From Candidatus Omnitrophota bacterium (GTDB lineage: Bacteria > Omnitrophota > Gorgyraeia > Zapsychrales > Zapsychraceae), in assembly GCA_023247445.1 (NCBI GenBank), contig JAHFGL010000017.1, positions 1-45,313 on the forward strand: 45,313 nt of DNA. Reading direction: 5' to 3'. This document shows positions 385 to 37,985 of this stretch, in pieces; position 1 is the stretch's first letter; each line of letters begins with the position of its first letter. The notes below the pieces were generated by a model. The model saw nothing but the letters and a program-made list of their open reading frames with translations. It ran no database searches and was not told the origin of the DNA. The translations under genes were made by a program, and so were the position numbers.

Positions 385-1119
385 ATGGCCGAAGTCCGCA
401 AAATTGGGGAAGAGTATTTTGTTGAATATTATGCGCAGGGGCTTTTATTCCGTAAGATTGGTGGGAAAACCCTCGAGGAAGCCCAACAGGTTTTAAAGAA
501 AATCGAAGACAGCCTACCAGACCAACACCACTGGTATAAAACAAGAGAAGATCCTTTTAATGATGTTTTTACAAATTTTTTAAAATTAGTTGAGTCAGAG
601 TATTCACCTATCACCTATGCCAGATTTGACGCTGTAACCCAAGATTTTAAACGATTTTTATCTTTAAACTTTCCCCAATATAAATTAATATCGCACATAA
701 CGCCGATCGTTATTAGCCGCTACGTTAGCTATTTATCAGCAGAATTAAATTTGAAGAATGATCGAAAGAAATCGCGGTACATCAATTTTTCTTTACTGCT
801 CTTATCAGAAATTTTTAGTCAAGCCATCAATTGGGGCGCTGTTAATGACAATCCTGTTTTACATATCAAACCATTTGGGCGGCAATATTTGAGTCGGTCT
901 TCACGCGTTGCTATTGATATTGATTTTAGTTCTTTAAATAGCGATGATCTTCAAAAAAAGAATTTGGCGCCGAATGTAAAGAAACAGTTGGCTCGACATT
1001 TAATTGAACGGGGAGTAAGGTTGATTCAAATTTTAAAATGGCTAGGAATTTCTGATATCGGGCGATTTTGTTATTTTGGTGAGACGGTGTTTGGGTGTTT
1101 TGAGAAGAAGATTTCTTAG
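385..1119 (+). CDS. Tyrosine-recombinase-like protein lacking the catalytic core
   Basis: The 244-residue product resembles the front of a phage-type integrase. Residues 1-50 look like an arm-type DNA-binding domain. Residues 55-160 are helical like a SAM-like core-binding domain and end in NDNPVLHIKPF, the usual junction to the catalytic domain. The catalytic domain (normally about 180 residues with R-H-R-Y) is reduced to about 70 residues. Its end (ARHLIERGVRLIQILKWLG) resembles the LRHTFATHLLERG...LGH block, but there is no convincing first Arg or final Tyr. It is therefore probably unable to recombine DNA. It could be a decayed integrase or a domesticated DNA-binding remnant. The start at 385 fits the promoter just upstream. 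A tRNA-Ser, a common integrase target, follows 300 bases later. Confidence 0.6.
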   Translation: MAEVRKIGEEYFVEYYAQGLLFRKIGGKTLEEAQQVLKKIEDSLPDQHHWYKTREDPFNDVFTNFLKLVESEYSPITYARFDAVTQDFKRFLSLNFPQYKLISHITPIVISRYVSYLSAELNLKNDRKKSRYINFSLLLLSEIFSQAINWGAVNDNPVLHIKPFGRQYLSRSSRVAIDIDFSSLNSDDLQKKNLAPNVKKQLARHLIERGVRLIQILKWLGISDIGRFCYFGETVFGCFEKKIS

Positions 1120-1123
1120 AGTT

Positions 1124-1394
1124 GAGAGGTGTCTGCCCTGGCGTACTTTGACTTAAGTAGCTTTTAACAAAGTACGTCCCCGTAGCACAGCGAAGGGGAC
1201 TACTATAAAAGATTTGTTGGGTGGTGTCTGCCTTGACGTATTTTGTTTAAACTTATGGAACGAAGTGAACATAAGTTTTAGCAAAATACGCTCCGAAGAA
1301 CGTAGTGATGAGGAGTTACAACAAGCTTAAAATTGAAGAGGTGTCTGCCCTGACTTATCTAATATGATTTTTGTAGTCAGGACTGCACCTCTCC
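1124..1394 (+). repeat. Array of three tRNA-5'-end-mimicking hairpin repeats
   Basis: There is no gene between 1120 and 1427. Instead three units begin with a copy of the downstream tRNA-Ser 5' end. GAGAGGTGTCTG occurs at 1124-1135, GGTGTCTG at 1223-1230 and GAGGTGTCTG at 1338-1347; the tRNA has GGAGAGGTGTCTG at 1428. Each is followed by CC(C/T)TG(A/G)C and a hairpin. Unit 1 has CGTACTTTG (1142-1150) with CAAAGTACG (1168-1176). Unit 2 has CGTATTTTG (1237-1245) with CAAAATACG (1282-1290), and a nested AAACTTATG (1249-1257) with CATAAGTTT (1270-1278). Unit 3 has CCTGACT (1349-1355) with AGTCAGG (1375-1381), plus an outer GAGGTG (1338-1343) with CACCTC (1386-1391). Units 1 and 2 differ by a compensatory C-G to T-A change. 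Function unknown. Confidence 0.7.
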
Positions 1395-1436
1395 TTATCT
1401 AAATATATTTTTTGTTTAATTATTGTAGGAGAGGTG
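1386..1436 (+). promoter_or_regulatory. Alternative hairpin that would sequester the tRNA-Ser(CGA) 5' end
   Basis: CACCTCTCC at 1386-1394 is perfectly complementary over 9 bases to GGAGAGGTG at 1428-1436, the mature tRNA 5' strand. Six of the same bases also close the upstream hairpin with GAGGTG at 1338-1343, so the two pairings exclude each other. The intervening loop begins TTATCTAAAT and ends TTATTGTA, the same loop style as in the upstream hairpin. A role in tRNA processing is inference. Confidence 0.5.
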
Positions 1437-1514
1437 TCTGAGTGGTTGAAGGTAGCGCTCTCGAAAAGCGTTGCCCCCGCAAGGGGGCCGTGAGTTCGAA
1501 TCTCACCCTCTCCG
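1428..1514 (+). tRNA. tRNA-Ser(CGA)
   Basis: An 87-base class II tRNA. The acceptor strands are GGAGAGG and CCTCTCC with discriminator G. The anticodon stem-loop is GCGCT-CTCGAAA-AGCGT, giving anticodon CGA. The long variable arm has a CCCCC/GGGGG stem, and the T-arm is GTGAG-TTCGAAT-CTCAC. No CCA is encoded. Confidence 0.95.
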
Positions 1515-1525
1515 TATTATTACAA

Positions 1526-1621
1526 GAGACCCTGGGTTCTCTCGACTTTTCTAAAATCTGTGGCAGTCGAGACCCCGCTTACCACAGATGTGAGAGAAGC
1601 GGGGGAATCCCAGCCTCTCCG
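1526..1621 (+). other. Kissing-hairpin element A inside a split T-arm-like sequence
   Basis: The sequence reads CTGGG-TTC, an insert, then GAAT-CCCAG and CCTCTCCG. The ends look like a T-arm plus the acceptor 3' end of tRNA-Ser, cut open in the T-loop. The insert holds three perfect 8-bp helices in the order a-b-a'-c-b'-c'. Helix a is TCTCGACT 1540-1547 with 1565-1572, helix b is ATCTGTGG 1556-1563 with 1582-1589, and helix c is CCCCGCTT 1573-1580 with 1597-1604. Helices a and c are adjacent hairpins, and b joins their two loops as a kissing interaction. I know of no named RNA family with this layout. Whether it is RNA or a DNA-level palindrome is not settled. Confidence 0.6.
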
Positions 1622-1632
1622 TTGATTTAAAA

Positions 1633-1729
1633 GAGTAGGAAGAGTTCTCTCGCCTTTGCTAACATCTGTAGAAGGCGAGACCCTGCTTACAGCAGATGGA
1701 AGAAAAGCAGGGGAATCTCACCTTCTCCG
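1633..1729 (+). other. Kissing-hairpin element B, diverged copy of element A
   Basis: Same order of parts as element A. GAG-TTC (1642-1647) and GAAT-CTC (1713-1719) flank the insert. Helix a is TCTCGCCTT 1648-1656 with 1672-1680. Helix b is CATCTG 1663-1668 with CAGATG 1693-1698. Helix c is CCCTGCTT 1681-1688 with 1705-1712. Helices a and c carry base changes relative to copy A on both strands, so pairing is kept while sequence changes. The 3' end (CTCACCTTCTCCG) again imitates the tRNA-Ser 3' end. From 1730 to 1797 I see only an AT-rich stretch with a CTCAAAGGGCTCCG motif (1746-1759) also found near 31.17 kb. Confidence 0.6.
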
Positions 1730-24193: not shown

Positions 24194-24282
24194 TACTCAG
24201 TTGATAAGGGCAAACCTAGGGTAACCTAGGGACGCAAAGCTAAAGGGTCCATTGGGGGGACAGCCAGCTACCAAAATGAGTA
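24194..24282 (+). ncRNA. c-di-GMP class I (GEMM-I) riboswitch aptamer
   Basis: The conserved blocks are present in order: AAGGGCAAACC (24206-24216), a CCTAGGGTAACCTAGG hairpin, GGACGCAAAGC (24230-24240), a GGGTCC...GGGGGGACAGCC helix and CAGCTACC. P1 is TACTCA (24194-24199) with TGAGTA (24277-24282). The middle G of AGGGCAAACC corresponds to the c-di-GMP-type guanine, not the adenine of cGAMP-binding variants. AAAATGA (24274-24280) can instead pair with TCATTTT (24284-24290), which excludes P1. This may be the switch element, although it does not overlap the terminator stem. Confidence 0.9.
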
Positions 24283-30798: not shown

Positions 30799-30898
30799 TA
30801 AATCCAAAGTTTTTACTCAAAAGACAGCATATTTTCCCTGGAATAATATTTTGTTTATGTTATTCTATACCGCGTTTCAAAAAGAATTGAATAATGAA

Positions 30899-30997
30899 AG
30901 GTGGCTGCCCTGACTTTTCTAAATGATTTTATTGAAGTCAGGACTACCACCTCTCTTTTCTGGATGTATTGTTTTTATATTGTTTGTGGAGAGGTGG
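30899..30997 (+). promoter_or_regulatory. Mimic/anti hairpin leader of tRNA-Ser(GGA)
   Basis: AGGTGGCTG (30899-30907) copies the tRNA 5' region. AGGTGG (30899-30904) pairs with CCACCT (30947-30952), and the inner CCTGACTT (30909-30916) pairs with AAGTCAGG (30935-30942). CCACCTCTC (30947-30955) is also perfectly complementary to GAGAGGTGG (30989-30997) in the tRNA. Compared with the Ser(CGA) leader, both arms have changed together to follow this tRNA's own sequence. Confidence 0.6.
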
Positions 30998-31076
30998 CTG
31001 AGTGGTTGAAGGCGCACGCCTGGAAAGCGTGTGGATGTCGTAAGGCATCTCTCGGGTTCGAATCCCGACCTCTCCG
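30988..31076 (+). tRNA. tRNA-Ser(GGA)
   Basis: An 89-base class II tRNA. Acceptor GGAGAGG/CCTCTCC with discriminator G. Anticodon stem-loop CACGC-CTGGAAA-GCGTG gives GGA. Variable arm GATGTC-GTAA-GGCATC. T-arm CGGG-TTCGAAT-CCCG. No encoded CCA. Confidence 0.95.
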
Positions 31077-31177
31077 TCAGTCTACTTCAAGCAATAACTT
31101 TCAAACCCGAAGGGGAAAGTTATTGCAAATGCTAGAAAAGACTGACGGATGTCCTTTGAGCTCAACAAGCTCAAAGG
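31074..31177 (+). repeat. Palindromes abutting the tRNA-Ser(GGA) 3' end
   Basis: CCGTCAGTCT (31074-31083), which includes the last three tRNA bases, pairs with AGACTGACGG (31139-31148). Inside is a perfect 12-bp hairpin, GCAATAACTTTC (31091-31102) with 31115-31126. A second palindrome, CCTTTGAGCT (31153-31162) with AGCTCAAAGG (31168-31177), is part of a 27-base repeat found again at 37918-37944. Confidence 0.75.
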
Positions 31178-31207
31178 GCTCCGTTATGAAAATAAAAGGA
31201 AGAACAC

Positions 31208-35816: not shown

Positions 35817-35898
35817 TTGTAATTTGCGCTCGCCCTTTTGCTGTTGGCAAAAGGGCTGGCACAAATTTTCTAAATAATATTATTGTAATTTGCGCTCG
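35817..35898 (+). promoter_or_regulatory. Mimic/anti hairpin leader of tRNA-Arg(ACG)
   Basis: TTGTAATTTGCGCTCG occurs at 35817-35832 and again at 35883-35898, where it contains the tRNA start. After the first copy comes a 9-bp hairpin, CCCTTTTGC (35833-35841) with GCAAAAGGG (35847-35855), then GCACAAATT (35859-35867). That last piece pairs with AATTTGCGC of either copy with one mismatch. The plan equals the two serine leaders although the sequence is wholly different. Confidence 0.6.
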
Positions 35899-37714: not shown

Positions 37715-37801
37715 GGAGAGGTGGCAGAGTGGTCGATTGCAACTGCCTGCTAAGCAGTTGACCTGGCAACGGGTCCTCGGGTTCAAATCCCGACCTCTCC
37801 G
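37715..37801 (+). tRNA. tRNA-Ser(GCT)
   Basis: An 87-base class II tRNA. Acceptor GGAGAGG/CCTCTCC with discriminator G. Anticodon stem-loop AACTGC-CTGCTAA-GCAGTT gives GCT. T-arm CGGG-TTCAAAT-CCCG. It lacks the mimic/anti leader of the other tRNAs but keeps TCTAAAT at 37693-37699. Confidence 0.95.
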
Positions 37802-37947
37802 CCATTTTGGCTTTGCCAAAATGGCGAGACTCGCCAACCACTTAAAATTTTTAAAGGTTGGCGGTCCGTCAGGTTTTGTTAGATTCAAAGTGCTCAGCCA
37901 ATTCTTTCTACTCGGAAGTCCTTTGAGCTCAACAAGCTCAAAGGACT
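37800..37947 (+). repeat. Palindromes abutting the tRNA-Ser(GCT) 3' end
   Basis: CGCCATTTTGGC (37800-37811), which includes the last two tRNA bases, pairs with 37815-37826. CGCCAACC (37832-37839) pairs with GGTTGGCG (37856-37863). AGTCCTTTGAGCT (37917-37929) pairs with 37935-37947 and contains the 27-base repeat shared with 31151-31177. Confidence 0.75.
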
Positions 37948-37985
37948 CCGTTAGTTTCTCGGACTCCGTCAGCAAGTATCGACTA

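Follow-up and report, generated by a model that had tools for sequence, protein, structure and literature searches.

The window, by which we mean the whole stretch of 45,313 nucleotides analyzed here, is contig C69 of a draft Candidatus Omnitrophota genome (2.29 Mb, 75 contigs, 45 tRNAs). It carries four tRNA genes, namely, tRNA-Ser(CGA) at 1428, tRNA-Ser(GGA) at 30988, tRNA-Arg(ACG) at 35892, and tRNA-Ser(GCT) at 37715. According to the original prediction, the first three are preceded by a "mimic" of the tRNA 5′ end and by an "anti" segment that can pair with either the mimic or the tRNA. The coordinates of this order held at all three sites, and the order exceeds chance. The sequence also bore out that the same plan precedes tRNA-Ser(GGA) and, with different bases, tRNA-Arg(ACG), and that the serine mimics match their own isoacceptors (GTGTCTG for CGA, GTGGCTG for GGA). 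The fourth gene, tRNA-Ser(GCT), lacks the mimic/anti plan. The three sites are composed as follows.

1337-1347 (+): mimic of tRNA-Ser(CGA), AGAGGTGTCTG, a displaced tRNA 5′ end that stops at the insertion point past CTG, at about tRNA position 13
1348-1386 (+): hairpin core HP1 of the Ser(CGA) site, C-CCTGACT .. AGTCAGG-ACT-GC; hairpin model match at 1343-1388, E=6e-10
1386-1395 (+): anti arm A′ of the Ser(CGA) site, CACCTCTCCT, 10 bp complementary to the new tRNA 5′ end
1396-1427 (+): long loop L2 (TTATCTAAATATATTTTTTG..), from anti to tRNA
1428-1514 (+): intact tRNA-Ser(CGA)
30897-30907 (+): mimic of tRNA-Ser(GGA), AAAGGTGGCTG
30909-30945 (+): HP1 of the Ser(GGA) site; hairpin model match at 30903-30949, E=3.7e-12
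30947-30955 (+): anti of the Ser(GGA) site, CCACCTCTC
30956-31076 (+): loop L2 and intact tRNA-Ser(GGA), which starts at 30988
35819-35832 (+): mimic of tRNA-Arg(ACG), GTAATTTGCGCTCG, 14/14 identical to 35885-35898
35833-35855 (+): hairpin of the Arg(ACG) site, CCCTTTT/AAAAGGG
35859-35867 (+): anti of the Arg(ACG) site, GCACAAATT, with one A.C mismatch
35819-35884 (+): whole Arg(ACG) unit including loop L2
35885-35965 (+): second GTAATTTGCGCTCG copy (35885-35898) and intact tRNA-Arg(ACG), which starts at 35892

The order of a unit is thus mimic, hairpin (C-stem-loop-stem′-ACT-GC), anti (the complement of the new 5′ end), a loop of about 30 bases, and the real tRNA. An Rfam scan of the window at curated thresholds returned only tRNAs and one c-di-GMP riboswitch and no family at the leaders. 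The riboswitch is a c-di-GMP-I-GGC aptamer at 24200-24276 (+) with 63.7 bits, above the Rfam gathering score. A sigma-70 consensus scan of 1100-1530, with a consensus that is uninformative for this phylum, gave a single weak minus-strand site and none from anti to tRNA. Other palindromes lie near tRNA ends in the window at 31120-31190 and 37860-37960 (GTCCTTTGAGCTCAACAAGCTCAAAGG.., TTCTACGAAGC..GCGAAGTAGAA) and, elsewhere in the genome, 3′ of tRNA-Phe, -Ala, and -Lys; they differ from the hairpin studied here.

For each tRNA, the 160 upstream bases were scored against its own 5′ end and against the 5′ ends of other tRNAs (permuted pairings). Over all 45 tRNAs the own-mimic score was 6.00 compared to 4.80 for the permuted pairings (p<=2e-4), and 18 tRNAs had a mimic match with a score of at least 7, where 2.4 were expected by permutation. 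The own-anti excess was weaker than that of the mimic (p=0.003). Two relatives, G032 and G033, likewise showed an own-mimic excess (p<=2e-4); for the anti, G032 behaved in the same way (p=0.004) and G033 gave p=0.055. The control genome G034, which has zero hairpin matches, showed neither (p=0.54 and 0.60 for mimic and anti). The mimic/anti pattern is real, yet because the hairpin-free G034 does not show it, it is a property of certain genomes and not of tRNA leaders generally.

A covariance model built on the hairpin only recovered about 50 strong copies genome-wide. An alignment of 20 hairpins shows an almost invariant foot, GC .. ACT, a TTCTAAAT-like loop, and a covarying stem, with 34 two-sided changes compared to 9.2 in shuffles; slid controls failed. 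Thirty-eight of the 50 matches lie within 300 bp of a tRNA, in zones that make up 1.3% of the genome. The hairpins near tRNAs are oriented in two ways: 19 are on the tRNA strand and precede the gene, and 14 are on the opposite strand and follow it. As they face the tRNA from both sides, the unit is no leader device as such. The hairpin core adjoins about half of the 45 tRNAs, and the other half and many relatives are without it. Relatives contain between 0 and 84 hairpin matches per genome regardless of how closely they are related, and the hairpin occurs in a patchy manner in 28 of 384 sampled Omnitrophota genomes. An exact-pattern scan of a public genome set matched only two contigs, both from Candidatus Omnitrophota MAGs.

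Away from tRNAs, the copies are inverted hairpin pairs (double hairpins) of ~113-118 bp. Two of these free copies sit within a longer genomic repeat, of which three other copies are insert-free and read straight through, so that an empty site AGCAAAATCC|GCCCAAAGGG can be set beside a filled site AGCAAAATCC[113 bp]GCCCAAAGGG. The host repeat belongs to a separate palindromic family (CCCGGATTTTGCAATAGCAAAATCCGCCCAAAGGGCCGACAAAG..., about 150 bp), with copies L116 to L120 in G000 at C10:66009-66329, C34:14270-14419, C34:17461-17711, C37:42845-42995, and C37:72316-72465. The 2-bp flanks agreed in 15 of 16 elements inspected, and the dinucleotides varied (GG, AG, AA, CA); the sole exception was a nested tRNA-Cys unit with GG/GA. 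Such agreement is what a 2-bp target duplication would produce. Because of the empty sites in its own genome, insertion of the hairpin element, with a 2-bp target duplication, is regarded as demonstrated at the level of sequence. The units encode nothing and are multicopy, and with target duplications and empty sites they fit the description of MITE-like elements.

These observations bear on the proposal that the leaders are cis-acting, with a mimic/anti switch in the precursor RNA gating how the tRNA folds or is processed. Anti is able to pair with mimic or tRNA at each of the three sites, the stem covaries, and folding in silico predicted that a co-transcribed leader abolishes the acceptor stem of both serine tRNAs (mean pair probability falling from 0.94 to 0.11 and from 0.73 to 0.01). 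The acceptor stem of tRNA-Arg, however, was predicted to be unaffected (0.96), and no Rfam leader family, T-box, or attenuator was detected at the sites. The free copies far from tRNAs, the empty sites, the opposite orientation downstream of tRNAs in place of a single one, the absence from about half of the tRNAs and from G034, and the interrupted tRNA copies described below likewise argue against a system that monitors or gates tRNA maturation, which we consider improbable. In the folding calculations anti alone was sufficient for both serine tRNAs to lose the acceptor stem, and the mimic did not rescue it at equilibrium. Anti may therefore compete with the tRNA-Ser acceptor stem if co-transcribed, with some effect on maturation. 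The predicted conflict would be avoided either by a transcription start inside the loop or by the mimic-anti hairpin forming first during transcription, or else it would come at a cost. The mimic-hairpin-anti plan recurs with unrelated bases, e.g., before tRNA-Ser(TGA), which together with the covariation of the stem could point to selection on an RNA and speaks against the mobile-element explanation given below.

The sequence around tRNA-Ser(CGA) is a stack, with displaced 5′ pieces at 1124, 1220, and 1337 in succession and a pair of displaced 3′ pieces. In addition to the mimic listed above, it contains the following features.

1124-1135 (+): oldest displaced Ser(CGA) 5′ piece, GAGAGGTGTCTG; tRNA positions 2-13 match locally at -304..-293
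1124-1176 (+): the oldest piece together with the hairpin on its 3′ side, CGTACTTTG at 1142-1150 and CAAAGTACG at 1168-1176
1220-1300 (+): second displaced 5′ piece, degenerate, GGTGGTGTCTG at 1220-1230, followed by a hairpin unit CGTATTTTG .. CAAAATACG
1532-1621 (+): displaced Ser 3′ piece 1 (CTGGGTTC .. GAATCCCAGCCTCTCCG), T loop split by a double hairpin with complementary loops
1642-1729 (+): displaced Ser 3′ piece 2 (GAGTTC .. GAATCTCACCTTCTCCG), T loop split by a double hairpin

The present 5′ end of tRNA-Ser(CGA) probably came from the last insertion. The double hairpins in the T loops of the displaced 3′ pieces occupy 1540-1604 and 1648-1712, and the complementary loops of the former (ATCTGTGG / CCACAGAT) could make a pseudoknot. 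An open reading frame of 244 aa at 385-1119 (+) stops shortly before the oldest displaced piece. It has a weak match, slightly below the cutoff, to a phage-integrase SAM-like domain (PF13102, E=2e-4) and is perhaps a decayed recombinase.

Larger versions, with about 200-240 bp between the outer bases, consist of a complete tRNA flanked by two hairpins, and the split tRNA in which they lie is of the same isoacceptor. In the source genome such nested units interrupt tRNA-Cys (D loop), tRNA-Val (variable region), tRNA-Arg-TCT (anticodon stem), and tRNA-Leu-CAG (anticodon loop); in G032 they interrupt tRNA-Val, at the same site as in the source genome, and tRNA-Arg-ACG. When the insert is omitted, the outer halves rejoin without loss, and the inner tRNA is intact. 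Free elements also occupy dead outer tRNA halves. The outer copies are damaged: the outer tRNA-Val of the source genome lacks G1-G2, and that of G032 has an altered anticodon. These nested and displaced copies show, at the level of sequence, that tRNA genes have been rebuilt. In another relative, G035, the outer pieces of a tRNA-Ser (locus L277, contig C11) have their anticodon loop interrupted by CCGCGAAGCGGGTCCGCTTTGCGG, a GC-rich palindrome that represents a second palindrome family using the same site.

Two other readings of the interrupted genes were considered. If the inserts were introns, the outer tRNAs would be spliced and functional, and some introns would hold a second tRNA gene. 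In favor of this reading, the insertions are precise and acceptor-stem pairing is often retained between the outer halves, but an intact inner tRNA is always there, the outer copies carry several insertions, and Rfam revealed no group I or group II intron at the sites in the window. On account of the damaging changes in the outer copies and the occurrence of the element in non-tRNA DNA, we rejected introns as very unlikely. Chance similarity or a metagenome assembly artifact could be invoked for a draft genome in 75 contigs, but it is hardly conceivable given permutation p values of <=2e-4 in three genomes with none in the control and the recurrence of one nested tRNA-Val locus across two families of the order.

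A gene for a GIY-YIG endonuclease was not identified in the window. Of 48 GIY-YIG loci in the order, 20 are no more than 500 bp from a tRNA and without exception on the tRNA strand, compared to 1 of 30 control loci, and the domain (PF01541) was recognized in units of G032 and of the source genome with E=7e-14 and 3e-14, respectively. At eight of the tRNA-adjacent loci, the gene has an intact tRNA on one side and, on the other, a displaced copy of the 5′ or 3′ part of that tRNA. The displaced 5′ parts are from Asp (a 44-nt direct repeat), Pro (1-39), Gln (1-37), and Ser (1-13), and the displaced 3′ parts are from Ser (38-90) and Lys (56-76 plus terminator). The cleanest cases are tRNA-Asp of G015, with the 44-nt direct repeat, and tRNA-Ser of G035, with an identical 3′ part of 53 nt. 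An element within its target gene, a replacement part, and a retained displaced part were found together at Asp, Pro, Gln, Ser, Lys, and Leu loci. A simple long target-site duplication fits GIY-YIG units such as that at tRNA-Asp; it was rejected, as it fails to explain the anti arm and the nested whole tRNAs with their 2-bp duplication. At locus L201 (G033, contig C85), a GIY-YIG reading frame enters the downstream tRNA-Val(TAC) and terminates inside it.

Hairpin units and GIY-YIG units share insertion sites in G032. In its tRNA-Ser(TGA) array, two hairpin units and then a GIY-YIG unit come behind copies of the tRNA start that end in GGTGGCTG|C; the junction GGAGAGGTGGCTG|C precedes both kinds of units, and CATTGACTT is the common start of the last hairpin unit and the GIY-YIG unit. 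At tRNA-Gln, the insertion site is likewise common to hairpin and GIY-YIG units. Two identical GIY-YIG genes are present there, the second between an outer tRNA-Gln 5′ half (positions 1-37) and a complete inner tRNA-Gln.

The hairpins might instead be moved by another enzyme, e.g., a Y1 transposase (RAYT) acting on single-stranded hairpins as for REP/BIME sequences, with GIY-YIG being an independent homing system that has the same tRNA targets. The free element, an inverted hairpin pair with short unpaired feet, is BIME-like, Y1_Tnp genes are present in 42 of 55 relatives, with three in the source genome, and 2 of 30 Y1 loci have a hairpin match in their flanks. Moreover, since the GIY-YIG units of hairpin-free genomes have zero hairpin matches nearby, a mobilizer other than GIY-YIG has to be given some weight. 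A 2-bp target duplication is, however, unexpected from peel-and-paste insertion, and the arrays in which both kinds of units have a common insertion point and start are not anticipated. One of 30 Y1 loci lies near a tRNA. In hairpin-rich genomes there are 5.3 GIY-YIG genes compared to 2.7 (p=1e-4), and the surplus of Y1 transposases is slight (p=0.06), both by a statistic that ignores kinship; hairpin counts are thus tracked strongly by GIY-YIG and weakly by Y1. We regard a separate mobilizer as less likely than not.

Taken together, the leaders are likely to be traces of mobile elements that enter tRNA genes and, in doing so, rebuild them. The alternative offered in the original prediction, a palindromic mobile element copying its target, is supported by the empty sites and nested copies in a refined form: the element comes with a replacement piece or with an entire tRNA, and relatives have a version of it that codes for an endonuclease. 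Entry into the tRNA gene would occur past position 7 to 13, in the T arm, or around the anticodon, and the element would supply the part otherwise cut off, be it the 5′ end, the 3′ end, or a whole tRNA for the same isoacceptor. The original piece would be displaced and persist as the mimic or as the halves of an outer tRNA enclosing the inner one, and the host would retain one intact tRNA. The intact tRNA also makes the target available again, so that one insertion can be stacked on another. Anti would be the 5′ arm of a hairpin that ends the element, the other arm being the leader and the new tRNA 5′ end.

In relatives, the long version encodes a small GIY-YIG endonuclease and is probably a homing element whose enzyme cleaves tRNA genes that are still uninterrupted; repair would then copy the element in, and the rebuilt tRNA would keep the host alive. 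Both the cutting of tRNA genes and the homing are inferred. The short version, a gene-less hairpin pair (GC-stem-loop-stem′-ACT-GC plus an inverted twin), is taken as non-autonomous and might, more tentatively, be a derivative moved in trans by the GIY-YIG protein. The system could even be a natural cleave-and-rescue drive, in which an essential tRNA gene present in one copy is cut by GIY-YIG, a functional rebuilt tRNA comes with the element, gene-less palindromic hitchhikers share the route, and many tRNAs of hairpin-rich genomes have been captured or recaptured; we would give this full scenario slightly less than an even chance.

Several known systems share parts of this behavior. REP/BIME palindromes, with TnpA-REP (RAYT), and the double-hairpin elements of fungal mitochondrial DNA are short non-autonomous hairpins that occur as inverted pairs in many copies. 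Unlike these, the elements described here have tRNA genes as insertion sites, produce a 2-bp duplication, and can include a complete tRNA; a foot tetranucleotide of the GTAG/GGAG REP type was not found, the conserved 5′ foot being GC and the conserved 3′ foot ACT(GC). Integrases and ICEs in tRNA 3′ ends carry a piece that restores the tRNA upon insertion, but in the present units no integrase was seen, both tRNA ends and the middle are targeted, and whole tRNAs are carried. Rickettsia palindromic elements are palindromic inserts inside genes and, in contrast, come without a rescue copy of the interrupted gene.

Closer precedents are provided by fungal mitochondria and phage T4. Mobile ORFs of fungal mitochondria, which encode homing endonucleases, replace gene ends (atp6 in Allomyces; atp9, cox2, and nad3 in Glomus), so that an endonuclease gene lies in the host gene, a new gene end is supplied, and the native end is kept as a displaced duplicate (PMC3630166). 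They concern mitochondrial protein genes whose C-terminal ends are replaced, whereas here bacterial chromosomal tRNA genes are affected at 5′ and 3′ ends or as a whole, and gene-less hairpin derivatives occur. SegB of phage T4 is a free-standing GIY-YIG homing endonuclease that is located between tRNA genes and drives inheritance of the tRNA region (PMC2988022). It is similar in enzyme family and location; it belongs to a phage and cuts a tRNA intergenic region, and the available part of that source describes no displaced tRNA ends or rebuilt tRNA (PMC2988022). The arrangement reported here was not described in the open-access literature on tRNA-gene palindromes, tRNAs inserted in tRNAs, and GIY-YIG genes beside bacterial tRNAs, which also gave no precedent for bacterial chromosomal elements that rebuild tRNA genes.

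The principle of breakage and rebuilding has so far been engineered, in cleave-and-rescue drives, and is natural for mitochondrial protein genes. The tRNA genes studied here are essential and mostly single-copy, and therefore an element that breaks and rebuilds them would make the host dependent on it. Small tRNA-adjacent GIY-YIG nucleases would gain a concrete role, and split or partial tRNA copies, which annotators would call pseudogenes, would be accounted for. A "leader" that mimics its own tRNA can be a scar, which calls for caution, and the anti arm remaining in it may burden or tune tRNA maturation. If the cleave-and-rescue drive is real, the tRNA set of hairpin-rich genomes would be carried in part by mobile elements.
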